Assembly (NCBI GenBank): GCA_024304885.1
Contig: JALJOM010000003.1
Location: 2,266,110 to 2,330,109 of the forward strand
Reading direction: 5' to 3'
Length of the DNA: 64,000 nucleotides
From: Beijerinckiaceae bacterium
GTDB lineage: Bacteria; Pseudomonadota; Alphaproteobacteria; Rhizobiales; Beijerinckiaceae
The translations under genes were made by a program, and so were the position numbers. Below the pieces are notes generated by a model. The model worked only from the letters and a program-made list of their open reading frames with translations, had not been told where the DNA came from and searched no databases. Of this stretch, positions 1-14,279 are shown one piece after another (position 1 is the stretch's first letter; every line of letters begins with the position of its first letter).

Positions 1-298
1 CGGAGCCGGGCGTGGTCAAGACAAATTCCTTGAAGGCACCTGTCTTCGGATCCAGCCGGCCGAGCAGATTGGAATTCTGGCCGGTGTACCAGACCGAACC
101 GTCCGCAGTCGCCAGAGGATCATGCGGATGGGAATGCGGGGTCGGAACGACCCATTCCCGGAATGTCACATCGATTCGGGCCGTCGAGCCATGTGTGGCC
201 TTGTCCGGTCCCTCACTTCGCGCGGCTTGACCGTGAGCAAGACCACAAGTGCCGATCGCCGTCGCCAACAGCACGGAAACGAAAGCTCTCGTTCGCAT
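1..298 (-). CDS. Virginiamycin B lyase-like (Vgb/streptogramin lyase) beta-propeller protein, N-terminal part
   Basis: Reading the minus strand from the ATG at 298 gives a secretory signal peptide (about residues 1-25) followed by a segment with EWVVPTP, HPHDPLA, WYTGQNSN and LGRLDPKTG. These are typical of the first blades of Vgb-like seven-bladed propellers, and the frame stays open to the window edge, so the C-terminal blades and catalytic residues are not visible. A GGGAGGTG ribosome site at about 304-311 fixes the start. In this family only some members are streptogramin lyases; many are secreted proteins of unknown substrate. It lies 200 bp downstream of the TonB-dependent receptor in the same direction, so co-transcription is possible. 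Antibiotic inactivation should not be assumed. Confidence 0.75.
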   Translation of the reverse strand, partial: MRTRAFVSVLLATAIGTCGLAHGQAARSEGPDKATHGSTARIDVTFREWVVPTPHSHPHDPLATADGSVWYTGQNSNLLGRLDPKTGAFKEFVLTTPGS

Positions 299-500
299 GA
301 TACACCTCCCGAGCATCGAGCTTCTCGGATATCGTCATTTTATCCAAAGACGTCGTCAACGATAATGCCCGCCGAGCCGATCACAATTCACACCGCAACC
401 CGCGAAGAGTGCGATGCAATCGATCAAAATCGGCCGAATGGACCGCCCATAGCGCAGGCCTTCGCCCTATCTCTCGCCGAGACCCTCGTCCCGCTACGAC

Positions 501-2906
501 TCAGATTCTGGTCCGGATGGTAAATCCGGCCGTCAAAGGTATACCGACATCGCCGCCGAGGCCTCCGGCCCCGAATCCGGTCGCTGCTGTACGGTTGATG
601 AAATAGCGCTTGTCGAGCGCGTTGAGTACCCAGCCGGAAACGTCGAGACTGCCGTCCTCGAATCTGAGCCCGGCATGAACATTGAGAAGTCCGTAGGGAT
701 TGATCCGCGTGTAGATCGAGTTGGTCGGGTCGGAATAGAAGCTCGTCTGATAAGTGAAGTCCGCGCCCATATAGCCGACGACGGGCTTCGGCACGGATTC
801 GAATATCTCTCCCAGGCGATGCTGGTATTCTCCACCCACGGCGAAGGCCCAAAGCGGCGTCAGCGAAAGCGGCTGTCCGGTGAAATTGCAGCTCCTGCCG
901 AGATTGCTCAGCTCGAACGGGCAGGGTCCCGAGTCGAAGGACCCGTAAAAGGTCTTGTCGTAGGTCAGAGATCCATACAGGAACAGCCCTTCAAGTGGCT
1001 CGGCCCGAACGTCGAGCTCGACACCGCGCGACACCGCGCGCTTGGCATTGGCGAGAAAAGTCACGGGCGTCCCTGTCGTCAAGCTTGTGACATTGGTAAT
1101 GTAGTTGTGATCGACCATGACGAAAGCAGCGACATTCACGAGAAGCTTGTTGTCGAACCAAGCACTCTTGACCCCGACCTCGTAATTGTCGAGCTCCTCG
1201 GCAAGGACCGTTACGGGCGCTGTTGCCGGAAGGTTCGCCGTAGGATTGGGACCTCCGGCGCGTCCGCCTCTCGAATAGGTGACAAAGCCCATGACGTCAG
1301 GAGTGAACTTGTAGGCCGCTGATGCCAGAGCCGAGATGAATCCTTGATGCGTATTCGCGACGAACTCGCGATCGGCGCCGACTCGAGCGTTGCGCGCCGC
1401 AATGGCAGTCCCTTGTTCCGCGGGGGTCAGGCCCGCGAGACTGTTCGCGGCAAAAACGTAGTTTCGAAAGATGCTGCTCTTTTGCGTGTAGGAATAGCGT
1501 AGTCCCGTCACAATGTCGAGCTCGGGCGTCGCGTGCCAAACCGATTGCGCGAAGGGAGCGATCGAGTGGACCCTCGGATTGTCGTAGGTTTGCTGGCCGA
1601 GATAGTTGAGCGCAACGTTGAAAAGTGGGACCGAAGCCGCGTTTGGTGCGAACCAGGCGCCCGCCTGATCTCGATAATCGGTCAGGCCCCAGCCGTAAAG
1701 CTGCTCGAAAAGGTAGAATACTCCCGCCGAGGCTTCGACCGGCTGGTCGGGTGGCGTGGTGATCCGGAATTCCTGTTGCACGGATCTTTCGGTCACATGA
1801 CGATTGGTGTCACCGAAGACCCGCGGATTGATATAGTTTCCATTCCTGTTGTTCGGGTGGAAGTCCCAGCCCCGATAGGCCGATATCGAGCTCAAGGTAT
1901 AACCGTTGATATTGTATTTCAGGATTGCGGCAGCCCCATAGCTTTCCTGTGCTGTCTGCAAGTAGCCATTGACGTCCGTTCGATAGTTTGCGAGCGCCGG
2001 CGTGGGAAGCGGCGTATAGCCGACACGTGCCGCCCGCGTGAAGAAGTTGTTCGGCACTGGCCTACCATCCGCGAAGCTTAGCACTGCGCCATCGTAGATG
2101 TTCAAGCAGCATGCTTGATTGACGTGGCCATAGTCGAACACGAGGCGGGCGGTCAAGTCGTTGGTCGGCTGCAGCAGGATTTGCGCACGGGCGCCCTTGC
2201 TGTGCCAATCATTGTAGCGCGTCTCGGCGATGTTGTTCTGGATGAAGCCGTCGCGGTCCTGGCCGAAGACCGCAATTCGATAGGCGGCCCAGTCACTTTC
2301 CGCAATCGGTCCCGTGGATTGCGCCTGGACCTGGACGTTGTTGTATTTTCCATAGGTCACCTGCGCGGCCTGCTGCGCGACAAAGCTCGGCAGCGCCGTC
2401 GTCAGGTTCACCACGCCACCCGTGCTGTCCTGGCCTCCGCTGGTGCCTTGAGGTCCCTTCAGCACCTCGACCCCCACGAGGTCCGGGATGTCGAAGATCG
2501 CTTGACCCGGGCGAGGCTGATACACGCCGTCGATATAGACCGGCACTCCACCGAAGATTCCGTCGGTCGCATTGGACGAAGCACTGCCGAAACCTCTGAC
2601 ATTGACCGTGAGGTTGCGGACGTTGGAAAACTTGATCTGAAGGCTCGGCTGCAGCTTTTGCGCCTGCTGCAGGTTGGTGATGTTCAGGGCCTCGATCTGT
2701 CGCTTGGTGACCACGGTCACGGGATTCGGCTTGGATTGAAACGCTTCCACCTGCTCCTGCGACAACGATTCTGCGGTTACAGGGGCCGTCACGACGACGT
2801 CCTGAACCTGCGCATCCTGCCCGATCGCAGTCGAGGACGCCGCGAGGACGAGCCCAGCCGGCAGGCCGATACGGCGCGAAACCCGGCAAAACTTTCTCGT
2901 TTTCAT
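501..2906 (-). CDS. TonB-dependent outer-membrane receptor
   Basis: An 801-residue protein with a Sec signal peptide (about 1-29, ending TAIGQ), a TonB-box-like stretch VQDVVVTAP, a plug domain with VNVRGFG, YIDGVYQ and VEVLKGPQGT, then a long beta-barrel rich in aromatic strands. It would bind a ligand at the cell surface and import it using TonB-ExbBD energy. The barrel ends in FTIRTRI rather than a terminal aromatic residue, which is unusual. I chose the ATG at 2906 because GGAG lies 6 nt upstream; in-frame ATGs at 2918 and 2927 are alternatives, and the longer reading to 3032 would add an arginine-rich non-signal N-terminus. No B12-riboswitch box was seen upstream. The exbD-exbB-tonB operon at 12.3-14.3 kb is the natural partner. 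Ligand unknown; the heme and redox neighbours suggest iron/heme or an organic substrate. Confidence 0.93.
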   Translation of the reverse strand: MKTRKFCRVSRRIGLPAGLVLAASSTAIGQDAQVQDVVVTAPVTAESLSQEQVEAFQSKPNPVTVVTKRQIEALNITNLQQAQKLQPSLQIKFSNVRNLTVNVRGFGSASSNATDGIFGGVPVYIDGVYQPRPGQAIFDIPDLVGVEVLKGPQGTSGGQDSTGGVVNLTTALPSFVAQQAAQVTYGKYNNVQVQAQSTGPIAESDWAAYRIAVFGQDRDGFIQNNIAETRYNDWHSKGARAQILLQPTNDLTARLVFDYGHVNQACCLNIYDGAVLSFADGRPVPNNFFTRAARVGYTPLPTPALANYRTDVNGYLQTAQESYGAAAILKYNINGYTLSSISAYRGWDFHPNNRNGNYINPRVFGDTNRHVTERSVQQEFRITTPPDQPVEASAGVFYLFEQLYGWGLTDYRDQAGAWFAPNAASVPLFNVALNYLGQQTYDNPRVHSIAPFAQSVWHATPELDIVTGLRYSYTQKSSIFRNYVFAANSLAGLTPAEQGTAIAARNARVGADREFVANTHQGFISALASAAYKFTPDVMGFVTYSRGGRAGGPNPTANLPATAPVTVLAEELDNYEVGVKSAWFDNKLLVNVAAFVMVDHNYITNVTSLTTGTPVTFLANAKRAVSRGVELDVRAEPLEGLFLYGSLTYDKTFYGSFDSGPCPFELSNLGRSCNFTGQPLSLTPLWAFAVGGEYQHRLGEIFESVPKPVVGYMGADFTYQTSFYSDPTNSIYTRINPYGLLNVHAGLRFEDGSLDVSGWVLNALDKRYFINRTAATGFGAGGLGGDVGIPLTAGFTIRTRI

Positions 2907-3159
2907 ACGATGCTCCATATCCGACATCCCTTGCCCGGGACGTTGGGTGGTTCGCGTTGATGCTACCCTGGATCTCGCTCTGGCGCGGGCTCTTGCCGCA
3001 TCGCGACCTCGTTCACAGGGATCGGAGCACATAGGCGGTTGGTAAAAACGAACGCCGAGCCGTGGTTGCCATCGGGCCCCGAGCTGCTCGAGAAGTGCTG
3101 TAGCGCCTTTTAGAGCGCACGAGTCAGAACCCGCGCCTTAGGCTATGACATCCGCTTCG

Positions 3160-3230
3160 ACCGCTTTATTACTCTATTTGTTTTATCGAGTGTATATGCA
3201 TATGAAGTCAATTCGATCGTGGGTATCCGC
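3160..3230 (-). promoter_or_regulatory. AT-rich promoter island upstream of the TonB-dependent receptor
   Basis: In the 377-bp gap between the receptor and the cytochrome c' gene, this block is far richer in A+T than its surroundings. Read in the receptor's direction it contains ATATACACTCGATAAAAC (complement of about 3180-3197). The first ten bases recur exactly upstream of the HbpS-like gene at 11368. The island lies about 260 bp before the start codon, implying a long leader or a second element. Function inferred from position and recurrence only. Confidence 0.45.
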
Positions 3231-3283
3231 AAGAGTGAAATGGCGCTTATTGCATTCCTGCCACACTCGAAGGCCGATACCCC

Positions 3284-3694
3284 TCACTTCTTGAGGGGCT
3301 TGTAGATATCGTGGCAAGCGCGGCACGTTTCGGCGGCATCTCGCGCCGACGCCGAAGCCTTGTCGAAATCGCTGTCACTCAATGCGGCGAGCGCGGCAGC
3401 CACGGATCGCAATCCGCGCTGTGAGATCTCGACCGCATCTTCTGCATTTTCCTTCTTGGAGAAATAATCCTCCGTATATTGGAACCCCTCCACGAGAATT
3501 TCCGCATCCTGCTTGGCGCCTTCGACATTTTTCGCGACGATATCCGGCTCGAAGAACTTGATCGTTCGATCCAGATCCCGCATCAGCTCGTCGTCGTAGT
3601 CCCGCAAATCGATCTCTTTGCGTTCAGTGCCACTCGCGGAGACGGTCAAGAGAAACGTGAGAAGCAGCGGTAGGGCGACCATCTTCCACACCAT
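3284..3694 (-). CDS. Cytochrome c'-like periplasmic heme protein (first copy)
   Basis: A 136-residue protein: signal peptide (about 1-21, ending SASG), a predicted all-helical body, and one heme-binding CRACH motif at residues 124-128 near the C-terminus. That is the layout of cytochrome c' and related class II c-type cytochromes, which are four-helix bundles with C-terminal heme attachment that bind small ligands or carry electrons in the periplasm. AAGGG lies 9 nt before the ATG at 3694. It is 85 bp downstream of the DUF1501 gene in the same direction, making it the likely third gene of that operon. A second, divergent family member is encoded at 9059. Confidence 0.85.
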   Translation of the reverse strand: MVWKMVALPLLLTFLLTVSASGTERKEIDLRDYDDELMRDLDRTIKFFEPDIVAKNVEGAKQDAEILVEGFQYTEDYFSKKENAEDAVEISQRGLRSVAAALAALSDSDFDKASASARDAAETCRACHDIYKPLKK

Positions 3695-3779
3695 CCCGAT
3701 AAACCCTTGGTGGAAAAGAACGAGAGCGCCCGACCGTACAAGGCCTGACGCTCTCTAGAGACTTCCCTCGATCGACGGG

Positions 3780-5222
3780 TCAGGCGAGGACCTCGTTGAC
3801 CACCGAGCCATAGACGACGGTCGGACGTTCGGCGCGCCCGGCTTTGAGATAGGTGGTTTTCAAATGATCGAGGCCGAGGAGCTGGAGCACGGTCGCGTGC
3901 AGGTCATAGGTATCGACTGGCCGATCGACCGCCTTCAACCCGATTTCGTCAGTCGAGCCGAGCGTCGTCCCGGCCTTGATCCCGGCTCCCGCGAGCCATT
4001 GCGTATAGCCCCAAGGATTGTGATCGCGTCCGTTGCCGCTCTGGCCGTAGGAGGTGCGCCCGAATTCCGAGGTCCACACGACAAGCGTCTGGTCCAGCAA
4101 CCCACGCGACTGGAGATCAGCCAGCAGCCCTGCAATCGGCTTGTCCACTGCCCTGGCGTGAGCGCCGTGATTTTTCTCGAGGTCCTGGTGCGCGTCCCAG
4201 TTCCGTACATCCTCCCCAGCGGCCTCCAAGGGGCCCGAGACCACCTGGATGAAGCGGACCCCCCGCTCGGCGAGGCGCCGCGCGCGAAGCAGGACGGTCC
4301 CGTAGTCTCTCGTCGCCTCGTCGTTCAACCCATAGAGGGCCTTCGTCGCCTCGGACTCCTTGCTCAGATCGACGGCGTCGGGCGCGGCAGCCTCCATCCG
4401 ATACGCGAGATCATACGAACGCGAACGCGCCTGCAGCTCGGTGTCTTCCGGATAGACAACGTCTCGACTCTCGTTCAACCGTCTCAACAGGTCGAGATCG
4501 TCCCGCTGCTGTGACAAGCCGACGAGTTCAGGGCGATCGAGATGAAGAATGGGCGAGTTGCCCGGTCGAAACGCGGTACCCTGGTAGACCGCCGGCAGGA
4601 AGCCCGAGCTCCAGTTCACCGATCCACCGGTCGGCTCCTTCTTGCCGCTGTAGAGCACGACATAGGCGGGCAGATCGGGGTTTGCCGACCCGAGCGCATA
4701 GGTCACCCAGGCGCCGAGAGAGGGACGCCCCGGGCTGAGGTCGCCGGTATTGAGCTTGAGGATCGAGATGTCATGCGTCGCACCGATCGTGACGCTCGAT
4801 CTGATGAACGCGATCTTGTCGGCCTGTTGCGCGAGATTCGGCAGGAGGTCGGAAAACCATGCGCCGCTCTGACCATATTGCTTCCAGGTTCGATTCGACG
4901 CGAACAGCTTGCCGACGCCGCCCTGCGTGCTCGTCTTGATGCCCTTGAGGAACGAAGCCGGGACCTCTTGTCCTGCGAGCTTAACGAGGTCGGGCTTGTA
5001 GTCGTAGAGATCGAGGGTGCTCGGCGCTCCGTCCATGTGGAGCCAGATCACAGTTTTCGCTTTTGCCGGAAAATGCGGCTCCTTGGGCGCGAGCGGATCG
5101 ACGTAGGTCGCCGCCAGGGTCGGAGTGGCGAGCAGGCCACCTCCCGGCAAGTGCGCCGCGAGCGCGAGCCCGCCGAATGCAAATCCGGTCTTGAACATTA
5201 GATCTCGACGCGATTGTCTCAT
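3780..5222 (-). CDS. DUF1501 family secreted protein
   Basis: A 480-residue protein beginning with a Tat-type signal (SRRDLMFKTGFAFGG, residues 4-18). It contains sulfatase/alkaline-phosphatase-fold hallmarks of DUF1501: WLHMDGAPSTLDLYD, PSLGAWVTYALG, NWDAHQDL and VVWTSEFGRT. DUF1501 proteins are almost always encoded next to DUF1549/DUF1553 proteins and are abundant in Planctomycetes; their activity is not established. The start at 5222 has AAGGAG 8 nt upstream; a longer reading to 5297 would add a serine-rich stretch and spoil the Tat signal. It follows the DUF1549/DUF1553 gene by 34 bp and precedes a cytochrome c' gene. Confidence 0.92.
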   Translation of the reverse strand: MRQSRRDLMFKTGFAFGGLALAAHLPGGGLLATPTLAATYVDPLAPKEPHFPAKAKTVIWLHMDGAPSTLDLYDYKPDLVKLAGQEVPASFLKGIKTSTQGGVGKLFASNRTWKQYGQSGAWFSDLLPNLAQQADKIAFIRSSVTIGATHDISILKLNTGDLSPGRPSLGAWVTYALGSANPDLPAYVVLYSGKKEPTGGSVNWSSGFLPAVYQGTAFRPGNSPILHLDRPELVGLSQQRDDLDLLRRLNESRDVVYPEDTELQARSRSYDLAYRMEAAAPDAVDLSKESEATKALYGLNDEATRDYGTVLLRARRLAERGVRFIQVVSGPLEAAGEDVRNWDAHQDLEKNHGAHARAVDKPIAGLLADLQSRGLLDQTLVVWTSEFGRTSYGQSGNGRDHNPWGYTQWLAGAGIKAGTTLGSTDEIGLKAVDRPVDTYDLHATVLQLLGLDHLKTTYLKAGRAERPTVVYGSVVNEVLA

Positions 5223-5256
5223 CGTGTGGCTCCTTGGGTTCTCGGAAGGCGACGAA

Positions 5257-7566
5257 CTAGAATCGGTAGATGAACTCGTTTGAGTTCGCGACCGCATGGA
5301 CGAGATCGACCCATGCTGCGGCCCGCAACGGATCTCGCGATGGCGTGTCCTTCAAGCCGATCGGTACCGCGAGCGAAAGCCTGCCGTCCGTCGCCTTCTC
5401 GATGATCGACCTGCCGTGACTGTCGAGGAACGCCAGCAAGACCGCCTTTTCGCTGGGGGTCGGCACGCGCGAGAACAAGATTCGATAGAGACGGTCGAGC
5501 TGCGCAGATTCGTCCGGCCCCGCCTCGCGAATCACCCTGCCTGCGAGCGCCTGGGACCAAGCGAAGACCTGGTCGCTGTTGATCAGCGTCAACGCCTGCA
5601 GCGGCGTGGTCGTGACGTCACGCTTGCTGTGCACCTGCTGAGCGGAAGCCATGTCGAAAGGCTCCAGAAGAGGATAAGGAACGCTACGTCTCGTGAAAAT
5701 GTAGAGGCTACGTCGATTGTGATCACGTGGGTCAGCGGAGGCCTCCCATAGCGGGCCGGCGTTCAAGTTGGCAGGGATCGGCGGGAAGACGCTCGGGCCT
5801 CCGACCTTTTCCACGAGCTTGCCCGAGGCGACGAGCAGCGAGTCGCGAACCTGCTCGGCATCCAGGCGCTTGCGTGGGAAGACCGCGAGCAGACGATTTT
5901 CGGGGTCCGCCTTGTAGGCGTCCTCGCGGTGATCAGAGGCTTGCCGGTAAGTTCTCGACAACAGGATCTGGCGGTGCAGCGATTTGATGCTCCAGCCGTT
6001 ACGGACGAAGCTATCTGCGAGATAGTCGAGCAATTCTGGATTTGTCGGCCGATCGCCGGCTTTACCGAAATCGCTCACGGTACCAACGATGCCCTTGCCG
6101 AAATATTGGTTCCACACCCGATTTACGAAAACTCGCGCGGTCAACGGATTGGTCGGGCTCGCGAGCCACCCGGCGAGGGCCGCGCGACGGCCGGAGGATT
6201 TCTCGGTGGAAATGATGACCGGCTTTTCCGTGGTCAAGGATTCCGGGAATGCCGGCTGCACCTCCTCTTCCGGGCGCTCGTGATTGCCGCCGAAGAAAAC
6301 ATAGGTCGGTGGGGAATCCGAATGCCCGAGCTCGGTCACGCCTGAAATATAGATCGATCCTTTGTTCGGCTTGAGCTTATCGAACTTCTTCAGCTCTTCG
6401 GTGAGCTTGCGATATTCCAGCCACTTGTCCCAGTTGGCCTTGTCGAAGTCGGGACTCTCCTTGTCCTCGCCCGAATATCTCAGGAACGCGGCGAGATCGT
6501 TCTCGGTCGTGACATAGGACACCCTATGGTTGACCCAGCGATCGAGAGCGGTCCATTGCTCGACCGGCTTGAAAATCGATTCCCGGCTATCCGTCAGGTA
6601 GCGCTCCTTGTGGTATTTGACGGCCTTCTCCCGCACGGAATCGATCAGCGCCTTTTGGCGCGCCTTGATATCCTTGGTGGCTTCCACCCATTTGGCCTGA
6701 GCGGCCTCGAACTCGCGCTCGTACTCGCCCTTCGTGACAGGGATTTTTTCGTTGACGCTGGTGTTGGCGAAAAAGGCTTGGAACGAAAAGTAGTCCTTCT
6801 GCGTGAACTTGTCCGACTTGTGGTTGTGGCACCTAGCGCAACCGATCGTCGACCCGAGGATCGCTTGCCCGATGGTGTCGGTGATATCGGTCGTGATCTG
6901 ATATTTTCTCTGAACGAGGTCGCGCGAATTGCTGTTGTCCGGGTACCCGACGAGGAAGCCGGTGGCAATCAGCGCCTCCTCGTTGCCGGGCGCGATCTCG
7001 TCGCCCGCGATCTGCTCCTGGATGAATCGATTGTACGGCTTGTCCTGGTTGAAAGCGCTGATCACATAGTCGCGGTAGCGCCACATGTTCAACCGCAACA
7101 AGTCGTTCTGGAAGCCGGCACTGTCGGCATAGCGCGCGAGGTCGAGCCAGAGCCGCGCCTGCCGTTCGCCGTAGCGCGGCGAGGCGAGAAGCCGGGCCAC
7201 GAGCCTTTCATAGGCCTCGGGCGAGGTGTCGTTCACGAAGGCCACGACCTCTTCCGGGGTGGGGATCAATCCCCATGTATCCAAGGTCGCACGCCGGATG
7301 AAGGTCGCCCGATCGGCATCGGTAGACGGGGGCAGATCCTTCGCCTCCAGCTTGGCGAGAATGAAGGAATCGATCGGAGTCCGAACCCAGTCCTTCTGCT
7401 TGACATTGGGCTCTGTGGGGCTTTGTACCCGCTGATAGGCCCAATGCTGGCGCGAAGCGCGTGACGCTTTGGCGTCGCTCGTCGCCTGATTGTCCTCCGC
7501 GCAAACCGCGGTCGCTGCCAGTCCGAAGGCCAAGGCAACAAACCCGTGCTTGGATCGATTTCGCAT
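5257..7566 (-). CDS. DUF1549 (PSCyt2) / DUF1553 (PSD1) secreted protein
   Basis: A 769-residue protein with a Sec signal peptide (about 1-23, ending AVCA), HWAYQRV, then DUF1549 (RATLDTWGLIPTPEE, YGERQARLWLDLARYADSAG, CARCHNHKSDKFTQKDYF) and a C-terminal DUF1553 (RRAALAGWLASPTNPLTARVFVNRVWNQYFG region, HRQILLSRTYRQ, DAEQVRDSLL, RRSVPYPLLEPFDM). In Planctomycetes these domains usually follow an N-terminal PSCyt1 cytochrome domain. Here no CxxCH lies before the DUF1549 CARCH motif, so that domain is missing. The start at 7566 was chosen for the signal peptide; upstream sequence in frame is AT-rich promoter-like DNA. It forms an operon with DUF1501 and cytochrome c'. Biochemical role unknown. 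Confidence 0.92.
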   Translation of the reverse strand: MRNRSKHGFVALAFGLAATAVCAEDNQATSDAKASRASRQHWAYQRVQSPTEPNVKQKDWVRTPIDSFILAKLEAKDLPPSTDADRATFIRRATLDTWGLIPTPEEVVAFVNDTSPEAYERLVARLLASPRYGERQARLWLDLARYADSAGFQNDLLRLNMWRYRDYVISAFNQDKPYNRFIQEQIAGDEIAPGNEEALIATGFLVGYPDNSNSRDLVQRKYQITTDITDTIGQAILGSTIGCARCHNHKSDKFTQKDYFSFQAFFANTSVNEKIPVTKGEYEREFEAAQAKWVEATKDIKARQKALIDSVREKAVKYHKERYLTDSRESIFKPVEQWTALDRWVNHRVSYVTTENDLAAFLRYSGEDKESPDFDKANWDKWLEYRKLTEELKKFDKLKPNKGSIYISGVTELGHSDSPPTYVFFGGNHERPEEEVQPAFPESLTTEKPVIISTEKSSGRRAALAGWLASPTNPLTARVFVNRVWNQYFGKGIVGTVSDFGKAGDRPTNPELLDYLADSFVRNGWSIKSLHRQILLSRTYRQASDHREDAYKADPENRLLAVFPRKRLDAEQVRDSLLVASGKLVEKVGGPSVFPPIPANLNAGPLWEASADPRDHNRRSLYIFTRRSVPYPLLEPFDMASAQQVHSKRDVTTTPLQALTLINSDQVFAWSQALAGRVIREAGPDESAQLDRLYRILFSRVPTPSEKAVLLAFLDSHGRSIIEKATDGRLSLAVPIGLKDTPSRDPLRAAAWVDLVHAVANSNEFIYRF

Positions 7567-7714
7567 GTGCGCTGCCAACCCCCGACTCCATCTATCGTGT
7601 TCAAGCTTGATCGATCCCGTTCGAAATCGAGACCAAACGGGGACATCGGTTCCGACAAACGGCACGAAGGCCCGACCACCGGACTTCCGCTCATCGAACC
7701 GCGTGCCCTTGTTC

Positions 7715-7790
7715 ATGTTTTTATATACCAGTAAGTTTATAGAGTCGATGGAGTTTAATTTTCTCATTTTCGAAGGTTTCGAAATTGTCT
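7715..7790 (-). promoter_or_regulatory. AT-rich promoter island for the DUF1549-DUF1501-cytochrome operon
   Basis: The 421-bp divergent gap 7567-7987 holds no gene I can support. Read toward the DUF1549 gene, this A+T-rich block contains CTCTATAAACTTACTGG followed by TATATAAAA (complement of about 7721-7744). It resembles the CTCTAT-containing island upstream of the HbpS-like gene. The implied leader is about 150 nt. Confidence 0.4.
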
Positions 7791-7871
7791 CTTCTTTGCT
7801 CGTCGAAGCGATGCGGCCATTCCTGGCCAGAGGCTGCGCTCGAAGCCAGGTCGCCCTCGTCGTCAACGCAC

Positions 7872-7900
7872 TTGACATAGTCGATAAATCATGTGGATAT
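7872..7900 (+). promoter_or_regulatory. Predicted sigma-70-type promoter of the dienelactone hydrolase operon
   Basis: TTGACA at 7872-7877, a 17-bp spacer, and GGATAT at 7895-7900 make a good vegetative -35/-10 pair about 88 bp before the GTG start at 7988. Sequence match only. Confidence 0.5.
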
Positions 7901-7987
7901 GTCGCTCACCAACATGCCTTGCCAGTGGTCCGGTGGTGAAAATATCTTCTGGTGGGGCGCCAAGAACGGTGGGCAAGGAGGGATTCA

Positions 7988-8878
7988 GTGCGACGCAAGA
8001 CCGCCGACAGCTTCAATCCCGAGCTGTTGAAGCTTTTCGATCTTTATGTTCACGGCTTGACGAGCCGGCGCGGCTTCCTCGATGGCGCCGCCAGGTTCGC
8101 TGTCGGCGGGTTGACTGCCGCGGGGATTCTCGACGCGCTCAATCCACGGTTCGCCGAGGCGCAGCAGGTTCGCCCGGACAATCCCGGGATCAATGCGAGC
8201 TACAAGGAGTATCCGTCTCCCTCCGGCTATGGGACTCTACGTGGCTACCTGGTCCAGCCGGCAAAGATCGAGGGAAAGCTCCCCACCGTCCTGGTGGTTC
8301 ACGAGAATCGTGGGCTGAACCCGCACATCGAGGACATCGCGAGGCGAATAGCTCTCGACAATTTCATCGCCCTTGCGCCGGATGCGCTGTTTCCCTTGGG
8401 AGGCTACCCTGGAGACGAGGACAAGGCGCGCGAGCAGTTTCAGAAGCTAGATCAAGCCAAGACCCGAAACGATTTCCTGGCCGCCGTGGGCGTGCTGAAA
8501 GCTCTCCCGGAAGGTAACGGAAAAGTTGGTGTGGTCGGCTTCTGCTATGGCGGCGGCATCTCCAATTTCCTCGCCACCCGGGTACCCGACCTCGCGGCCG
8601 CAGTCCCGTTCTACGGCAGCCAGCCGCCGGCCGAGGACGTCGCGAAAATCAAGGCACGCCTTCTCATTCATTATGCCGGGATCGATGATCGCATCAACAA
8701 TGGGTGGCCCGCCTACGAAGAGGCGCTGAAAGCAGCCGGGATCAAGTACGAAGCCTATATCTACCCCGGTGTGCAGCATGGATTCAACAACGACACCACC
8801 CCGAGATACGACGCGGCCGCGGCCAAGCTCGCCTGGCAAAGGACGATCGACCATTTCAACGCGACCTTGCGGAGCTGA
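7988..8878 (+). CDS. Dienelactone hydrolase family protein, Tat-exported
   Basis: A 296-residue alpha/beta hydrolase. An N-terminal segment with TSRRGFLDGAARFAVGG (about 25-41) is a Tat signal. The nucleophile is Cys186 in GFCYGGG, with Asp233/234 in the YAGIDDR loop and His264 in PGVQHGF completing the DLH triad. An early HENRGL motif matches YghX/DLH-like proteins. The GTG start at 7988 is chosen because AAGGAGGG lies 5 nt upstream; an in-frame ATG at 7952 has no such site. DLH-fold enzymes open lactone or ester bonds, but the substrate here is unknown and no aromatic-degradation genes are nearby. It is the first gene of a plus-strand run with a cytochrome c', cytochrome b561 and peroxiredoxin, and diverges from the DUF1549 operon. 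Confidence 0.9.
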   Translation: MRRKTADSFNPELLKLFDLYVHGLTSRRGFLDGAARFAVGGLTAAGILDALNPRFAEAQQVRPDNPGINASYKEYPSPSGYGTLRGYLVQPAKIEGKLPTVLVVHENRGLNPHIEDIARRIALDNFIALAPDALFPLGGYPGDEDKAREQFQKLDQAKTRNDFLAAVGVLKALPEGNGKVGVVGFCYGGGISNFLATRVPDLAAAVPFYGSQPPAEDVAKIKARLLIHYAGIDDRINNGWPAYEEALKAAGIKYEAYIYPGVQHGFNNDTTPRYDAAAAKLAWQRTIDHFNATLRS

Positions 8879-8933
8879 CAGAGATCGTCAGTAACGCCGA
8901 CCATCGGCTCGCGCTGACGCCGAGTGCTGCAGC

Positions 8934-8952
8934 GCGGCGTGCCTCACGCCGC
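8934..8952 (+). terminator. Short perfect hairpin after the dienelactone hydrolase gene
   Basis: GCGGCGT, a 5-nt loop and ACGCCGC form a stable stem 55 bp after the stop codon, but no T-run follows. It may be an RNA-stability element rather than an intrinsic terminator. Confidence 0.25.
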
Positions 8953-9058
8953 GACGTGTCTCGATCACCCGACGGCCCCTGCGCGACCTCGCACGTGCTC
9001 CCGCGCTGATACGAGACGGCGCGGGAGCAAGATCAGAACAATCAGGAGAATCGTATCT

Positions 9059-9580
9059 ATGTCATGGAGTCCGCTTTCCGTCCGCGTCGTGTCGCCTGCC
9101 GTCGCGTCCATGCTGCTCGCTGCGTCATCGGTGATCTCCTTGAGCGCCCAGACGGCACCGCCTGCTGCACCGAGCGCAGCACCTACTCCAGCGGCGCGGC
9201 AGACGATCGAGGCACGCAAAGCGGCCTTTACGCTGGTCGGCCGCAACTTCCGACCGATCGGCGAGGTGCTGAAAGGCAACGTGAAATACGAAGATATCGA
9301 TGTCACGAAGCATATCGCACGCATCGCCTTCCTATCCAACCTCCTCCAGGAGGAGTTTCCCGACTCGACGAACCTCGGTGAGCCGGAAACGAAGGCAAAG
9401 CCGGATGTGTGGGCCAATCGTGCCGATTTCGATAAGCGGCTACACGATTTTCAGTTGCATGCGGTGGCCTTGGCCGAGGTCAATGCCCGCGACAAGGGCC
9501 TGACCGATTCGGTCAAGACGGCGGTAACCACCCTCGGTCAAGACTGCAAGGGTTGCCACGACACCTACAAGGTCAAGTGA
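9059..9580 (+). CDS. Cytochrome c' (second copy)
   Basis: A 173-residue protein with a signal peptide (about 1-30, ending SLSAQ), an Ala/Pro linker, and a classic cytochrome c' body: QTIEARKAAFTLVGRNF, LPEFPDSTN-like EEFPDSTNLGE, PDVWANRADFDKRL, and the heme motif CKGCH at 163-167 followed by DTYKVK. It would act in the periplasm, binding NO or CO or carrying electrons. The ATG at 9059 has AGGAG about 10 nt upstream. It lies 154 bp before a cytochrome b561 gene; cytochrome c' and b561 genes are often paired, which supports electron exchange between them. Confidence 0.95.
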   Translation: MSWSPLSVRVVSPAVASMLLAASSVISLSAQTAPPAAPSAAPTPAARQTIEARKAAFTLVGRNFRPIGEVLKGNVKYEDIDVTKHIARIAFLSNLLQEEFPDSTNLGEPETKAKPDVWANRADFDKRLHDFQLHAVALAEVNARDKGLTDSVKTAVTTLGQDCKGCHDTYKVK

Positions 9581-9734
9581 GGGCGAATTCTCGCGCCGAC
9601 TCGTGTCGTTCCTCGGCTCCATGCGCTCGAACTGCGCGGGGCCTCGCGGGTCGGCTGAAAGCCTCGGAGGCCGTCACGGACGGTCGCGAGGTCTCCCTCC
9701 CCGATCGACCAGAATAAGCGCAGAAGGGGCTTTC

Positions 9735-10466
9735 ATGGCAGCGATCGACGACAGCATCGACGAATCGACAGCGAAAGAAGAGTATCGCGTTTGGGACCTT
9801 CCCGTGCGCGTGTTCCATTGGGCCCTCGTCCTCGCCATCATAGCGGCGTTCGTCACAAACCGCCTCGGCGTGGCCTATTTCACGTATCATGTCTGGTGTG
9901 GCTATGCCGTCCTCGTGCTGATCCTATTTCGGGTCTTGTGGGGCTTGGTCGGGACGAAGCACGCGCGTTTCGCGACCTTCGTGCGCGGTCCCCGATCGAC
10001 CATCCGATATGCCGCGGAATTGATCCGCGGTCGTGACGAGCCTCATGCCGGACACAACCCACTGGGCGCCTGGATGATCGTCACCCTGCTCGGCTTGCTC
10101 GGCAGCCAGGCGCTCCTCGGACTCTTTGCCGATGACGAAATCTTCAACACGGGTCCCCTCAGCGGCTACGTCACCCACGACACGAGCCTGCGCCTCACGT
10201 CTCTGCATCGTATCGTCTTTTATTGGATCGTGGCGGCGATCGCGATCCACGTCCTCGCCGTCGTCGCCCATGCTGTCTTCAAGCAGGAGAACTTGGTTCA
10301 AGCCATGCTGACCGGTCACAAATCCGCCCCGAGCGCGACGCGTCACGACCACATCCATACCTCGCGAACCTGGCTCGCGGTCCTGGTCACGATCGCGGTG
10401 TCGGCGGGGCTCGCCTGGATCGTCGGGGATGCACCCGCTCCGAACAACACGGGCTCGCTGTTTTGA
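9735..10466 (+). CDS. Cytochrome b561 / NiFe-hydrogenase b-type cytochrome family protein
   Basis: A 243-residue integral membrane protein with four core transmembrane helices plus a C-terminal helix (about 220-236). It begins VWDLPVRVFHWALVLAI, where the early His is a heme b ligand, then YHVWCGYAVL, NPLGAWMIV and LHRIVFYWIV/AIAIHVLAVVAH supply further His ligands. Such proteins pass electrons between the quinone pool and periplasmic cytochromes. AAGGGG lies 5 nt before the ATG at 9735. No hydrogenase subunits are present, so cytochrome c' is the likelier partner. Confidence 0.92.
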   Translation: MAAIDDSIDESTAKEEYRVWDLPVRVFHWALVLAIIAAFVTNRLGVAYFTYHVWCGYAVLVLILFRVLWGLVGTKHARFATFVRGPRSTIRYAAELIRGRDEPHAGHNPLGAWMIVTLLGLLGSQALLGLFADDEIFNTGPLSGYVTHDTSLRLTSLHRIVFYWIVAAIAIHVLAVVAHAVFKQENLVQAMLTGHKSAPSATRHDHIHTSRTWLAVLVTIAVSAGLAWIVGDAPAPNNTGSLF

Positions 10467-10596
10467 AGCGGTGCGGCCGAGCCAGGAAAGGAGCGAGCCT
10501 TGGCCGCGACGTGGCCGCGATCGCCCACCATATCGAAGGACGAGCGGGTCCAGCTCTCGTCACGAGCCGGCGCAACACGAAGAGAGATGCACAATC

Positions 10597-11181
10597 ATGA
10601 CCGGAAAAACGACCTCTGCTTCCAAGCTCGGCATCTGCGGAGCAATAGCTTTGGAGGGATTGCTGACGATCCCGGCAATCGCGGACCTGAAGCCCGGCGC
10701 CGTCGCTCCGGAGTTCACGGCAGAAGCCGCCGTCGGGGGAAAGGACTTCACCTTCTCTTTGTCGGAAGCCTTGAAGAAGGGCCCGGTCGTTCTCTACTTC
10801 TATCCCAAGTCTTTTACTCGCGGCTGCACGATCGAGGCGCATGAGTTCGCAGAGGCCGCAGACAGCTTCTCTGCCGCCAGCGCGACCCTGATCGGGATGT
10901 CGCGCGATACGATCGAGACGCAGAGGAAGTTTTCGACGGAAGAGTGCCGCGACAAGTTCCCGGTCGCCGCCGATCCCGACCTCGCCGTCACGAAGGCCTA
11001 TGACGCCGTGAGCACTCGGGTTCGACCTTCCGGGGAGGCCGTGTCCGAGCGTATCTCCTATGTGATCGCGCCGGACCATACGGTCCTCTACAGCTATGTG
11101 GATCCCTCTCCCGACAAGCACGTGGAGAATACTCTCGCGGTCGTACGGCAATGGCATGAGCGGCGGAGCAAGGCTCCCTGA
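10597..11181 (+). CDS. Periplasmic peroxiredoxin, AhpC/TSA (BCP-like) family
   Basis: A 194-residue protein with a signal-like N-terminus (hydrophobic 11-29, ending AIAD) and a thioredoxin fold. The peroxidatic cysteine is Cys77 in SFTRGCTIEAHEF, which replaces the usual TPVCT by TRGCT. A second cysteine at 117 could be a resolving partner. It would reduce peroxides in the periplasm. It follows the cytochrome b561 gene by 130 bp in the same direction, consistent with protection of heme proteins. The start at 10597 keeps the signal peptide; AGAGAG lies about 10 nt upstream. Confidence 0.88.
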   Translation: MTGKTTSASKLGICGAIALEGLLTIPAIADLKPGAVAPEFTAEAAVGGKDFTFSLSEALKKGPVVLYFYPKSFTRGCTIEAHEFAEAADSFSAASATLIGMSRDTIETQRKFSTEECRDKFPVAADPDLAVTKAYDAVSTRVRPSGEAVSERISYVIAPDHTVLYSYVDPSPDKHVENTLAVVRQWHERRSKAP

Positions 11182-11367
11182 CGCGGACCGCCTGAAGTGT
11201 TCCGGCCAGCGGCTCAGCTCGCGACCGCTGGCCTCGGTCCGAAACGTGCGGGGCAATGACGGTTCCACGGCGGGCTGGAGCGGCACTCGTCCGGCTCCCG
11301 GCTCGTCGAGCGTGACTCCTATACCACATCATGGGCGCGCACGACCGAGGCAGCGCCTCAAAAAATA

Positions 11368-11395
11368 ATATACACTCTATTAGGATTATGTATAT
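11368..11395 (+). promoter_or_regulatory. Palindromic AT-rich element upstream of the HbpS-like gene
   Basis: ATATACAC and ATGTATAT form an 8-bp inverted repeat (one mismatch) spaced by 12 bp, 69-96 bp before the start codon. ATATACACTC is shared exactly with the receptor's upstream island (complement of 3188-3197). It could be an operator or extended promoter; the cognate regulator is not in this window. Confidence 0.4.
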
Positions 11396-11463
11396 TGCGT
11401 TGGGTTGCACCCCTTCCATCCACTCGACCGGTGCCCCACAGCGATTGAAAGGTTGTAGTCTCC

Positions 11464-11958
11464 ATGTCGATTCGATCGAACATCGCCACGCAAGCCGTCG
11501 TCGCCTGCACGCTGGCCTCGCCCTCTGTTGCGCAGCAGGTGACGACGGTGAAGAGCCTCTCGGCTCCGGCCGCTCTGGCGATCGCGCAGACAGCCTACGA
11601 TTTGTGCACGCAGCAAGGCTATCGGGTCTCCGTGCATGTGGTCGGACGCGAGGGTGAGCCACTCGTCGCGATCCGCGGGGACGGCTCGTCGCCACATACG
11701 TTCGAGAACAGCCTGCGGAAGGCCTATACCGCACGCACATTCCGCACCTCGTCGGGAGAATTCGCCCAGCGTGTGAAGGACAATCCCACGCTCGGCGTTG
11801 TCCATCTTTCGGGCGTGATCGCCCTGCAGGGAGCGCTGCCGATCAAGGTCGGCGAGGACGTCGTCGGCGCCGTCGGTATTTCGGGTGCTCCCGGTGGCGA
11901 CAAGGACGAGGCTTGCGCCAAGGCCGGTATCGACAAGGTCGCAGCTCAGCTCAATTGA
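11464..11958 (+). CDS. GlcG/HbpS family (DUF336) secreted heme-binding-like protein
   Basis: A 164-residue protein with a signal peptide (about 1-23, ending SVAQQ) and the complete GlcG/HbpS domain: LAIAQTAYDLCTQQGYRVSVHVV, SLRKAYTARTF, GALPIKVGEDVVGAVGISGAPGGDKDEACA. HbpS of Streptomyces binds heme and participates in redox sensing, but many members lack an assigned role. It has its own AT-rich promoter island and is followed by a strong terminator, so it is probably monocistronic. Position beside exbD-exbB-tonB and cytochromes fits heme or iron handling. Confidence 0.88.
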   Translation: MSIRSNIATQAVVACTLASPSVAQQVTTVKSLSAPAALAIAQTAYDLCTQQGYRVSVHVVGREGEPLVAIRGDGSSPHTFENSLRKAYTARTFRTSSGEFAQRVKDNPTLGVVHLSGVIALQGALPIKVGEDVVGAVGISGAPGGDKDEACAKAGIDKVAAQLN

Positions 11959-12054
11959 CTCCGGCTTGCGCCCACTGAGGCCATGGCGCAACCCGCAGGT
12001 GAGCATAGAGCGAATCACGGTCCCACGACAGCCACGATATGTCGTGCCTCTCGA

Positions 12055-12088: not shown

Positions 12089-12188
12089 GCTTGCTCCCGA
12101 CGTAGTCGATCCCTGCCGACGGCACGGCGCGGGGGACGGGACGGAAGCCAAATCGATCTGCGGACGAGCCGGAGCCCCCCCGTCCTAC

Positions 12189-12300: not shown

Positions 12301-12750
12301 CTATTGGGCAGCAGGCACCGCAGAGACCGGCCTCACCGGGGATTCCGAGACGAGGGCGACCTTCGTATAGCCTCCGGAATTGATGAGGCCCATCACCTCT
12401 ACGATCCGGCCATAGGACAGTGTCTGATCGGCCCGCACATGGATGCGCCGGTCCTTGGCCTCCGGCGTCTCGCCGAGGACCGATACGATCCGCTCCTGCG
12501 CGACCTCGCTCTTGTCGACGAAGAGGCGCCCTTCCGCGTCGAGGCTGACGACGATGGGTGGCTTCTGGTCAGCGAGCGGCTTCGTCTGCGTCTTCGGGAG
12601 ATCGACCGGAATGCCGGTCGCCATCAGTGGCGCAGCCACCATGAAGACGATGAGCAGAACGAGCATGACATCGACCAAAGGAGTGACATTCATGTCGCTC
12701 AAAGGCGCGGAGTCGAACTCGCTGTCATGCTTACGCAACGCGAAGGCCAT
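12301..12750 (-). CDS. exbD: Biopolymer transport protein ExbD
   Basis: A 149-residue protein with one N-terminal transmembrane helix in the signature context MNVTPLVDVMLVLLIVFMV (residues about 20-38, catalytic-type Asp in LVDVML) and a periplasmic domain with RADQTLSYGRIVEVM. With ExbB it forms the proton-driven motor that energises TonB. The ATG at 12750 overlaps the exbB end by 20 bp, showing translational coupling. TolR would look similar, but the third gene is TonB, so ExbD is preferred. Confidence 0.93.
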   Translation of the reverse strand: MAFALRKHDSEFDSAPLSDMNVTPLVDVMLVLLIVFMVAAPLMATGIPVDLPKTQTKPLADQKPPIVVSLDAEGRLFVDKSEVAQERIVSVLGETPEAKDRRIHVRADQTLSYGRIVEVMGLINSGGYTKVALVSESPVRPVSAVPAAQ

Positions 12751-13468
12751 TGCGGTCTCCCCTCTTGGCGAGCTGGCGGGACAGCTCGATCTCGAACACG
12801 CCGATGAAGGCCGTGAGCTTCTTGCCGTAGGCACCGATGTCGGTGCCGATTCGATTGTAGAAGATGACGGCCGGAATTGCCGCGACGAGACCGAGGGCCG
12901 TCGCGAACAAAGCCTCTGCGATACCGGGCGCGACGACGGCGAGGCTCGTATTGCCGGATGCCGCAATGCCTTGAAACGAGTTCATGATGCCCCACACGGT
13001 GCCGAAAAGGCCGACGAAAGGAGCGACGGCGCCGATCGTGGCGAGCCCCGACAACCGGCTGTGGAGCTGCTCGAGTGCGCTGCTGCTCGCGAGCTGTGCA
13101 ACCCTGTGGACACGCTCCTGAAGCCCGTCGCGCTGCGCTTCGGTATGGACGAGGTCCGCCGAGCGAGCATGCTCCTCGACCATCGCCTTGTAGACCAAGA
13201 CGAACGGATCATTGGGCGAGGCCGTCGCAAAGCTATCCGCCAAGGATGCCACGGGCAGTCCTTCCTGAATGCTCGCGACGAGCCGCGATGCCCGCCGCTC
13301 GAGGATTTTCAGGCGGACGACCTTGTCGAGAATCACCGCCCATCCCCAAGCGGAGGCGATGACGAGAAGGATCATCACGGACTTGACGATAATGTCCGCC
13401 TGCAGAAAGAGTTGCCATGGCGACAGGTGTTGCACTGCCACGGCGGCGCCGGTTACGGGATCACTCAT
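12731..13468 (-). CDS. exbB: Proton channel protein ExbB (MotA/TolQ/ExbB family)
   Basis: A 245-residue membrane protein with three helices (about 27-48, 143-165, 182-205). Hallmarks are GLATIGAVAPFVGLFGTVWGIMNSF and ALFATALGLVAAIPAVIFYNR, which line the ExbB/TolQ proton pathway. It sits between tonB and exbD in a tight minus-strand operon, 43 bp after tonB. It would power the receptor at 501-2906 and other TonB-dependent receptors. Confidence 0.94.
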   Translation of the reverse strand: MSDPVTGAAVAVQHLSPWQLFLQADIIVKSVMILLVIASAWGWAVILDKVVRLKILERRASRLVASIQEGLPVASLADSFATASPNDPFVLVYKAMVEEHARSADLVHTEAQRDGLQERVHRVAQLASSSALEQLHSRLSGLATIGAVAPFVGLFGTVWGIMNSFQGIAASGNTSLAVVAPGIAEALFATALGLVAAIPAVIFYNRIGTDIGAYGKKLTAFIGVFEIELSRQLAKRGDRNGLRVA

Positions 13469-13511
13469 TTGTTCTCTCGGCTCATGGGGTGGGTCGGGTG
13501 GGTGTGTTGCG

Positions 13512-14279
13512 TCAGCGGTAGACGATTGCGCCTGAAAGCGAGATCGGCCGCGACACGCCCGTCGGCGGGAAGGGTGCCGCGCGCGCCAGGGCCTCGGTCG
13601 CGGCCAGATCGAAGATCGGATTGCCGGAGGGCGAGATGCTTTTCGAGATCAGTTGCCCTGCGGGGCCGATGACGAGGCGATAGCCGACACGGCCGCTCTG
13701 GCCACGCGCGATTGCCGCACGAGCCGTTCCGGTCGACGCGGTGCGGCTGACCCGGGCGAAGATCTGGTTCGCATAGCCCGATGGAACGGCATTCGCCGAC
13801 GGCGCCGGCGAACTCCCGGGCCCCGGTGCCGCCGGCGTTGCACGGCGCGGCTCCTGAGCTGGCGGCCTGTCGGCCACCTTCTTCTTGACGGGGATCGGCT
13901 TCTTCTCCTGAACGACCGGCTTCGGCTCGACCGGCGCAACGGGTTCCGGCTCCTCCGCGATCGGGGGCGGCGGCGGTTCGTCCTGCGCTTCCTCGATCGG
14001 TGGGGGCGGCGGCGGTTCGTCCACCGCCGGAATCTCCGGTTCCGCCGGAAGCATGACGAGCTCCAGAGGCTCCTCCTGAACAGGGTCTACGCGGCGCATC
14101 GAGAATGTCGCGAGCGCAACGAGAAGGAGCCCATAGAGCACGACGGCGGCCGCTTGCAGCAGAAGCGAGGATTTGCCCTGCGCCGGAGCGAGGAGGGCCT
14201 CGGCTCCGCCGCGATCGACAGCTGCGGAGCTGTCAGGGTCCCAAGCCAGCGGATATGTGGTTGCGAGAGTGGATGTCAT
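13512..14279 (-). CDS. tonB: TonB energy transducer
   Basis: A 255-residue protein: cytoplasmic N-terminus, one transmembrane anchor (about 37-58), a periplasm-spanning Pro/Glu/Lys-rich linker (about 68-150, with PPPPPP and PKPVVQEKKPIPVKKK), and a C-terminal TonB domain (about 170-255) containing GRVGYRLVIGPAGQL and ATEALARAAPFPP. It contacts receptor TonB boxes in the outer membrane. First gene of tonB-exbB-exbD; an AT-rich block at 14311-14333 lies just upstream. Confidence 0.93.
   Translation of the reverse strand: MTSTLATTYPLAWDPDSSAAVDRGGAEALLAPAQGKSSLLLQAAAVVLYGLLLVALATFSMRRVDPVQEEPLELVMLPAEPEIPAVDEPPPPPPIEEAQDEPPPPPIAEEPEPVAPVEPKPVVQEKKPIPVKKKVADRPPAQEPRRATPAAPGPGSSPAPSANAVPSGYANQIFARVSRTASTGTARAAIARGQSGRVGYRLVIGPAGQLISKSISPSGNPIFDLAATEALARAAPFPPTGVSRPISLSGAIVYR

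Follow-up and report, generated by a model that had tools for sequence, protein, structure and literature searches.

The window (the whole 64,000-nucleotide stretch analysed) contains three adjacent minus-strand genes at 3284-7566, encoding a PSCyt2-PSD1 protein, a DUF1501 protein and a small class-II cytochrome (Table 1). Profile searches confirmed the DUF1549/DUF1553-DUF1501 pair named in a preliminary description: PSCyt2 (PF07583) matched at E 1.9e-80 with 270.2 bits against a curated cut-off of 29.8, PSD1 (PF07587) at E 4.9e-95 with 318 bits against 28.5, and DUF1501 (PF07394) as a full-length domain above its cut-off (E 1.9e-133, 445.9 bits). None of the three proteins received an NCBIfam name at E 0.01. 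The longest open reading frame of the PSCyt2-PSD1 gene extends to 7878 (5257-7878, minus strand, 873 codons), and that of the DUF1501 gene spans 3780-5297 (minus strand), with the ATG taken at 5222. With this start the intergenic gaps are 34 and 85 bp, in keeping with the tightly spaced trio, free cytochrome third, described earlier. All three genes carry predicted export signals, and their order is common to alpha-, beta- and gammaproteobacteria; a chance neighbourhood was ruled out by this conserved order and by matching phylogenetic profiles. A scan for promoters and terminators found fewer sites than shuffled sequence gave on average (1 promoter-like site, mean 2.2; 4 terminator-like sites, mean 7.2), and is thus uninformative on the operon. 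Judged from sequence, the trio is a real operon-like gene set. The alphaproteobacterial host assumed earlier also fits, as Methylosinus sporium DSM 17706, an alphaproteobacterium, has PSCyt2 at the place that matches its position in a genome of the window's family.

Table 1. Genes and sequence features at the locus, in window coordinates.
Feature	Coordinates	Strand	Basis or remark
Vgb-lyase-like protein, N-terminal part	2..316	-	match below Pfam cut-off; full 352 aa in L163
TonB-dependent receptor	501..3032	-	family search
Class-II cytochrome, exported (predicted)	3284..3694	-	c556/b562-like by invariant Met; weak PF01322 match
CxxCH (CRACH) codons of class-II cytochrome, C-terminal	3311..3325	-	residues 124-128
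Met38 codon of class-II cytochrome, invariant, candidate axial heme ligand	3581..3583	-	alignment
DUF1501 protein	3780..5222	-	480 aa; twin-arginine motif; sulfatase-like fold (model) without C-x-P-x-R signature
PSCyt2-PSD1 (DUF1549/DUF1553) protein	5257..7566	-	769 aa; N-terminus is a predicted export signal, without PSCyt1
CxxCH (CARCH) codons, single, within PSCyt2	6826..6840	-	invariant in family
Dienelactone-hydrolase-family protein (YghX-like), divergent	7952..8878	+	427.3 bits, below 460-bit NCBIfam cut-off
Second, typical cytochrome c'	8924..9580	+	PF01322, E 9.5e-29
Cytochrome b561	9603..10466	+	family search
AhpC/TSA (PrxQ-like) peroxiredoxin, apparently exported	10429..11181	+	family search
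HbpS-like protein	11464..11958	+	family search
ExbD, ExbB and TonB genes	12301..14279	-	named by eye from ORF sequence

The sole CxxCH of the 873-codon frame lies at residue 347, inside PSCyt2, and none precedes DUF1549, as first described. The motif is present in 53/53 proteobacterial copies in the tree and invariant across 40 alignment rows; PSCyt2 is a domain with its own predicted heme-c motif. The AlphaFold model of PSCyt2-PSD1 has a pLDDT of 87.5. Solved relatives were absent by sequence up to E 1, no PDB fold matched the model at E ≤ 0.001, and literature searches of open-licence PMC papers found no biochemical study of the protein. DUF1501 was found downstream of PSCyt2-PSD1 in 51/54 copies; of the other three, L131 and L150 have DUF1501 by another search and L160 runs off its contig. 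All 21 DUF1501 proteins aligned carry a twin-arginine motif. Foldseek matched the DUF1501 model to sulfatases (E 6e-8, probability 1.00, with low TM-scores of 0.3-0.4), suggesting the fold of the alkaline phosphatase superfamily. Sulfatases bear the signature C/S-x-P-x-R for formylglycine, whereas C-x-[PA]-x-R occurs in 0/21 DUF1501 rows and the looser [CS]-x-P-x-R in 1/21; the latter is absent from the window protein, which has no cysteine whatsoever.

The third protein matched PF01322 (Cytochrom_C_2) at E 2e-4 with 22.7 bits, under the 26.5-bit gathering score. Like the class-II cytochromes c556, b562 and c', it has a C-terminal CxxCH followed by Tyr, and the PDB entries it matches best are CxxCH-bearing cytochromes b562, and cytochrome c'. 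Its N-terminal Met is invariant in 45/45 third proteins and aligned with the b562 Met by a weak match only. Of the original label, cytochrome c', the class-II assignment with its C-terminal CxxCH stands, but the score below the Pfam cut-off and the invariant Met call for caution over c' itself. The protein resembles an electron carrier of the c556/b562 type more closely than a high-spin cytochrome c', although c556 itself was not among its matches. Unlike other class-II cytochromes, 30 of 45 members of the family have CxxxCH in place of CxxCH. The idea of a heme-less third protein in gammaproteobacteria was dropped, as the alignment shows CxxxCH in place of the missing CxxCH. Such CxxxCH class-II cytochromes raise a second problem, namely whether and how heme is attached.

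Among relatives (149 genomes, including the window's own), the small cytochrome profile was found in 10/10 genomes with PSCyt2 and in 0/139 without. PSCyt2 is enriched in methanotrophs, occurring in 34/151 genomes of one gammaproteobacterial methanotroph family and in 1/397 genomes of a Pseudomonadota draw, and the cassette recurs across distant methane-oxidisers. Genomes with PSCyt2 carry PF02461 only, PF02964 only, or both, so neither enzyme alone explains PSCyt2 and a tie to one methane monooxygenase type was ruled out. Methane monooxygenase was undetected in the PSCyt2 carriers G017, G063, G751, G151, G351, G383 and a Nevskia MAG. PSCyt2 and PSD1 are each reported 41 times in Rhodopirellula baltica (PMC2754498), and according to a genome paper of 2017 the functions of PSCyt genes are wholly unknown (PMC5615132). 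The version studied here is single-copy in 31/34 carriers of the gammaproteobacterial family and 9/10 carriers among relatives. It sits in bacteria of which some, such as Methylosinus sporium DSM 17706, are in culture, and has defined partners: a peroxiredoxin, a receptor and a cytochrome family whose presence or absence matches its own in each relative searched. The function of the whole family may therefore be testable by deletion and spectroscopy. Our literature searches, confined to open-licence PMC papers, found no description of the methanotroph cassette.

Companions were counted within 10 kb of the 46 cytochrome-bearing proteobacterial copies. A peroxiredoxin relative was present at 46/46 and a rhodanese-like protein at 43/46, followed by a TonB-dependent receptor related to the window's (31), PepSY (29), cytochrome b561 (20), dienelactone-hydrolase-family proteins (18), SMP-30/gluconolactonase-like relatives (18) and HbpS-like proteins (12). 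The neighbouring receptor pointed out earlier is thus real and recurrent. Receptors at other loci are 23-62% identical to it, so the ligands could differ between loci. Relatives of TonB, ExbB and ExbD lay within reach of 5, 7 and 8 of the 46 copies, and in several other genomes they adjoin the cassette. Relatives of the typical cytochrome c' were found at 8/46 copies by BLAST, with weaker HMM matches at further loci.

The preliminary description proposed that the free cytochrome stands in for a lost PSCyt1 and provides the heme function in trans. Planctomycete-type pairs (PVC, Acidobacteria and other phyla) share the PSCyt2-PSD1 architecture, the internal CxxCH and usually DUF1501 as the next gene; they have PSCyt1, whereas window-type copies lack it and add a free class-II cytochrome third together with peroxiredoxin and rhodanese-like companions. 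Replacement is favoured by the lack of any CxxCH upstream of PSCyt2 (0/53 proteobacterial copies in the tree) and by the class-II cytochrome found downstream on the same strand in 46/54 copies, while none was detected within 6 kb at PSCyt1-bearing loci. A PSCyt1 encoded elsewhere, which had been named as a counterexample, was ruled out: a profile search with PF07635 found none in the window's genome, although it picked up 24 and 65 matches in a pair of planctomycete genomes. The other counterexample named, a homologue without an adjacent cytochrome, does exist. Two of the 8 copies without a downstream cytochrome run off their contigs, but the remaining six, confined to a single subclade, have neither PSCyt1 nor the cytochrome. 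The same holds for the Acidobacterial homologue L029, in which no class-II cytochrome was detected in 10 kb of downstream sequence. A second Acidobacterial case, L030, was dropped, since only 663 bases of its contig follow PSCyt2. The proposed coupling of PSCyt1 loss to an adjacent cytochrome thus holds for most copies and fails in these; absence of PSCyt1 does not require the cytochrome, which, on this gene content, is not an obligate substitute for it. Moreover, the cytochrome's match is to class-II PF01322 and not to PSCyt1, and PSCyt2-PSD1, keeping its own CxxCH throughout, has no need to borrow a heme function. The supply of heme function in trans, as stated, is not supported in view of that retained motif, and we regard replacement as rather unlikely.

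Clues to the substrate came from a plasmid of the marine Saccharobesus litoralis (NZ_CP026605.1), whose PSCyt2-PSD1 and DUF1501 proteins are 49% and 63% identical to those of the window. Its cassette shares both class-II cytochromes (the same small cytochrome family, 73 bits; cytochrome c', 38%), cytochrome b561 (48%) and a TonB-dependent receptor after the cassette; unlike in the window, the annotation of the stretch examined shows no peroxiredoxin. A pectate lyase/CBM77 protein, two GH88 enzymes and a pectinesterase lie within 15 kb, and glycan-degrading enzymes are also found near a Catenovulum relative. In contrast to the plasmid, a sample of the genes around the methanotroph copies yielded no such enzymes, including any glycoside hydrolase, and a scan of 10 window proteins found none that degrades glycans. 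For Verrucomicrobia, the 2017 paper (PMC5615132) reports PSCyt genes close to those for sulfatases, and carbohydrate-binding modules in some of the PSCyt genes.

We tentatively propose, at somewhat less than even chance, that the locus is a periplasmic oxidation (redox) cassette acting on a ligand that is imported and resembles a carbohydrate. This ligand, most likely carbohydrate-like, for example a uronate-containing oligosaccharide, would enter through the TonB-dependent receptor and be oxidised by PSCyt2-PSD1, using a heme c bound at its CxxCH and assisted by the sulfatase-fold, Tat-exported DUF1501 protein. Electrons would leave through the small c556/b562-like cytochrome, passing to cytochrome b561 in the alpha type and to a PF00034 cytochrome c and a PepSY membrane protein in the beta/gamma type. 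The lactonase-like propellers and the dienelactone-hydrolase-family enzyme could then process an oxidised, lactone-type product. It counts against this reading that the pectin context comes from one plasmid, that the PepSY and TonB parts fit metal uptake as well, and that some proteobacteria carry PSCyt2 with no methane monooxygenase detected.

Much of the same neighbourhood could serve metallophore or heme uptake, in which a metal chelate would enter through the receptor and be reduced by the cytochromes and the PepSY protein, with the hydrolases cleaving open its ligand. The recurrence of receptor, PepSY and HbpS-like proteins, the TonB/ExbB/ExbD relatives and the Vgb-lyase-like and dienelactone-hydrolase-family proteins at the locus are consistent with this, but the pectin genes around the Saccharobesus cassette and the sulfatases accompanying verrucomicrobial PSCyt genes argue against it. 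In passing, no sigma-factor/FecR pair or siderophore synthase was noticed next to the cassette, and we consider uptake of this kind improbable. Still less probable is a module for periplasmic defence against peroxide or nitric oxide, made up of cytochrome c', cytochrome b561 and peroxiredoxin. The peroxiredoxin at every cytochrome-bearing copy, the window's own b561 and typical cytochrome c', and the c' relatives elsewhere would suit such a role; it leaves the PSCyt2-PSD1/DUF1501 core and the receptor unexplained, however, the typical cytochrome c' was undetected near many copies, and the invariant Met of the third protein argues against an open, gas-binding heme.

A narrower version of the carbohydrate cassette, which we think very unlikely, is that methanotrophs import plant or algal sugars that are methoxylated or methyl-esterified and oxidise them with the planctomycete-type periplasmic oxidase via its dedicated class-II cytochrome, whose heme site in the gamma lineage is a natural CX3CH, the methyl group passing to C1 metabolism. 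If true, methane-oxidising bacteria would be tied to the breakdown of pectin-type carbohydrates.

The cassette consists of genes for PSCyt2-PSD1 (DUF1549/DUF1553), DUF1501 and a small class-II cytochrome, separated by intergenic gaps of 34 and 85 bp (see table). It is a variant of a gene pair, PSCyt2-PSD1/DUF1501, that is known but has no function assigned. The complete form of the Vgb-lyase-like protein, found in locus L163, has 352 aa. Relatives of the cytochrome c'/cytochrome b561 pair recur near other cassette copies and on a Saccharobesus plasmid. Further along, window 15607-20037 holds two neighbouring ORFs of 429 and 1044 aa, the larger of which resembles an RND-type efflux transporter in its first residues.

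Genes of the cassette and its surroundings in the window
Feature	Position	Strand or direction	Length	Remarks
PSCyt2-PSD1 (DUF1549/DUF1553)	ATG near 7566	-	769 aa	
DUF1501	start 5222	-	480 aa	
Third gene, cytochrome with export signal	trio span 3284-7566	-	136 aa	
TonB-dependent receptor	501-3032	-		251 bp gap after trio
Vgb-lyase-like protein	2-316	-		below Pfam cut-off; 184 bp gap after receptor
Dienelactone-hydrolase-family protein		diverges from trio		YghX-related; NCBIfam score under cut-off
Second, typical cytochrome c'	8924-9580	diverges from trio		
Cytochrome b561	9603-10466	diverges from trio		next after typical cytochrome c'
Peroxiredoxin, HbpS-like protein		diverge from trio		with cytochrome c' and cytochrome b561

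The preliminary description, whose observation as a whole was confirmed and strengthened, had stated that no CxxCH lies ahead of DUF1549, which is correct for the window protein. PSCyt2 and DUF1549 are one and the same domain, and it has a CxxCH (CARCH) of its own, which does not vary across the 40 rows of the PSCyt2-PSD1 alignment (the window and 39 of 80 scan loci). All 53 proteobacterial copies in the tree have CxxCH once in the aligned part of PSCyt2, and none has it upstream. A PSCyt1 encoded elsewhere in the operon had been named as counter-evidence; a PSCyt1 search of the window's whole genome gave 0 matches. The search works, since it found 24 and 65 matches in two genomes of planctomycetes. 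Seven other genomes gave 0 (G010, G055), 1 (G218, G151), 4 (G789), 8 (G156) and 52 (G157) matches.

PSCyt2 was present in 10 of 149 relatives, own genome included. The third-protein profile, built partly from those 10 genomes, gave a single match in each of them and no match in any of the 139 others. Proteobacterial copies were drawn from the relatives, one contig scan, the families of a Methylobacter MAG (PSCyt2 in 34/151 genomes; regions fetched for 32 of the 34, without G239 and G299) and a Gallionellaceae MAG (3/100), and genome G751. After L020 and L123 were left out (same contig places as L023 and L024), 54 copies were examined. A model first built on alpha sequences and refined on the same 54 copies detected the cytochrome downstream on the same strand in 46; it lies 1.4-2.2 kb past the PSCyt2 end in 45 and 3.1 kb past it in L150. 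The eight copies without it were L016, L025, L026, L130, L138 (first copy), L151, L156 and L160, of which L025 and L160 are cut short by the contig end. DUF1501 was detected by script in 51 of 54; among the three misses, L131 and L150 do have DUF1501, and the contig of L160 ends.

Neighbours within 10 kb of each of the 46 cytochrome-bearing copies were counted by a BLAST comparison with seed sequences (cut-off 1e-6); the counts depend on how far each contig runs, and the family names rest on few Pfam-scanned members. A peroxiredoxin was found near 46/46, a rhodanese-like protein near 43, a TonB-dependent receptor near 31, a PepSY membrane protein and a PF00034 cytochrome c near 29 each, cytochrome b561 near 20, and a dienelactone-hydrolase-family protein and relatives of an SMP-30/gluconolactonase-domain protein near 18 each. 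BLAST found no rhodanese-like gene in window 1-16000. Exported rhodanese-like proteins with weak Pfam matches are encoded at L012 9033-9599, L018 7432-7917 and L024 7754-8275; the L012 protein appears to lack Cys at the usual active-site position.

The third gene yielded 46 sequences, all complete except the truncated L021. Each of the 45 complete ones has Met, Cys, Cys, His, Tyr and Lys at alignment columns 59, 145, 149, 150, 153 and 154. The heme motif is CxxCH in 15 (alpha, Gallionellaceae and G751 sequences) and CxxxCH in 30, all from the Methylobacter MAG family. CxxxCH third genes follow DUF1501 in L131, L133, L141 and 27 further loci. Searched against the PDB, the profile scored best with cytochrome c' and with b562 entries that contain CxxCH (E about 0.002); over a weak stretch of 5 bits, its invariant Met falls opposite the N-terminal Met of b562. 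In b562 the N-terminal Met is an axial ligand, and c556 also has a Met axial ligand. The earlier "stand-alone cytochrome c'" is indeed a free cytochrome, third in the trio, but the invariant Met and the PDB profile matches suggest that it is better called c556/b562-like.

A quick IQ-TREE of 72 rows (53 proteobacterial, and 19 outgroup rows that were a chosen sample; the Saccharobesus copy lies outside it) set the 53 copies apart from the outgroup at a branch with SH-aLRT 100; the order among other phyla is unsure because of long outgroup branches, flagged by IQ-TREE. The six testable cytochrome-less copies (L016, L026, L130, L138 3755-6154, L151, L156) all belong to a single eight-member subclade (SH-aLRT 94), in which the other two have the cytochrome. 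Three of them, L016, the first L138 copy and L151, come from genomes in which another copy of the cassette does bear the cytochrome. Homologues without an adjacent cytochrome, which the preliminary description had set against its own idea, thus exist, namely these six and L029, a near non-proteobacterial homologue (45%) with neither PSCyt1 nor a class-II cytochrome in 10 kb downstream. L030 (42%) has no PSCyt1, and it lies too close to a contig end for the cytochrome to be judged. L042, L057 and L058 have one CxxCH each and no class-II cytochrome shown; a further ORF with CxxCH lies 3.3 kb off in L042. The preliminary interpretation as a whole was partly supported. The downstream cytochrome in 46/54 copies and the missing PSCyt1 agree with a cytochrome that replaces PSCyt1, but L029 lacks both. 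One reading is that PSCyt1 was already absent before the cytochrome joined, gain versus loss not being proven; on this reading strict replacement is weakened.

Among the close relatives (63-72% identity), those with a name are Methylocystis, two Methylosinus, and Methylococcaceae, Methylobacter, Gallionellaceae and Nevskia MAGs, the last two not named as methanotrophs; identity falls to 45% at the next matches, Acidobacteria. Among the window's relatives, the methane monooxygenase families PF02461 or PF02964 occur in 8/10 PSCyt2 genomes versus 9/139 without PSCyt2 (Fisher p 2e-7, uncorrected for kinship); the carriers G017 and G063 have neither. PF02461 was found in 30 of the 34 PSCyt2 genomes of the gammaproteobacterial family, with no match in G155, G160, G221 and G239. 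Pseudomonadota were also sampled evenly (398 genomes, the own genome among them); PSCyt2 scored above the cut-off only in G751 besides the own genome, and below it in G759. PF02461 is absent from G751, Gallionellaceae G351 and G383, the Gallionellaceae MAG G151 and the Nevskia MAG G152. Because PSCyt2 occurs in 34/151 genomes of the gamma family versus 1/397 of the draw (p 1e-19, uncorrected for kinship) and some carriers lack PF02461/PF02964, it is strongly enriched in methanotrophs and not confined to them. PSCyt2 follows no single monooxygenase type.

A twin-arginine motif is present in 21/21 rows of the DUF1501 alignment; the sulfatase signature C-x-[PA]-x-R is found in 0/21 and the loose form [CS]-x-P-x-R in 1/21. 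In Foldseek the DUF1501 model (pLDDT 76.9) matches sulfatases at E 6e-8; the TM-scores are low (0.3-0.4). The PSCyt2-PSD1 model (pLDDT 87.5) had no PDB fold match at E <= 0.001, and no sequence match was found up to E 1. The gene set is conserved, with export signals and heme motifs recognised in sequence and a fold predicted by modelling. A ligand would be imported by the TonB-dependent receptor and oxidised by PSCyt2-PSD1, and the small cytochrome would hand the electrons on to either b561 or the pair of cytochrome c and PepSY protein; lactone-type processing may fall to the propeller and dienelactone-hydrolase-family proteins.

For the ligand, something carbohydrate-like is the guess with the most support, and a metal chelate is its main rival. 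Passages of a 2017 paper on Verrucomicrobia describe PSCyt genes near sulfatases, some with carbohydrate-binding modules, and give no function as known for them (PMC5615132); elsewhere the domains are read as pointing to a redox function (PMC2754498). A plasmid search gave 5 records, and loci of Saccharobesus litoralis and Catenovulum adriaticum were examined. The best record, Saccharobesus litoralis NZ_CP026605.1, encodes PSCyt2-PSD1 (49%, without PSCyt1), a DUF1501 protein (63%) and, annotated as hypothetical, a member of the small third-gene cytochrome family (73 bits, CxxCH). It also has genes for a cytochrome c' (38%), a cytochrome b561 (48%) and a TonB-dependent receptor, and within 15 kb lie those for a pectate lyase/CBM77, two GH88 proteins and a protein annotated as pectinesterase. 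On the Catenovulum adriaticum plasmid, genes for DUF1553 and DUF1501 are present, as are those for a PSCyt1 protein and an NHL-repeat protein; they adjoin GH43, GH115 and GH98 annotations.
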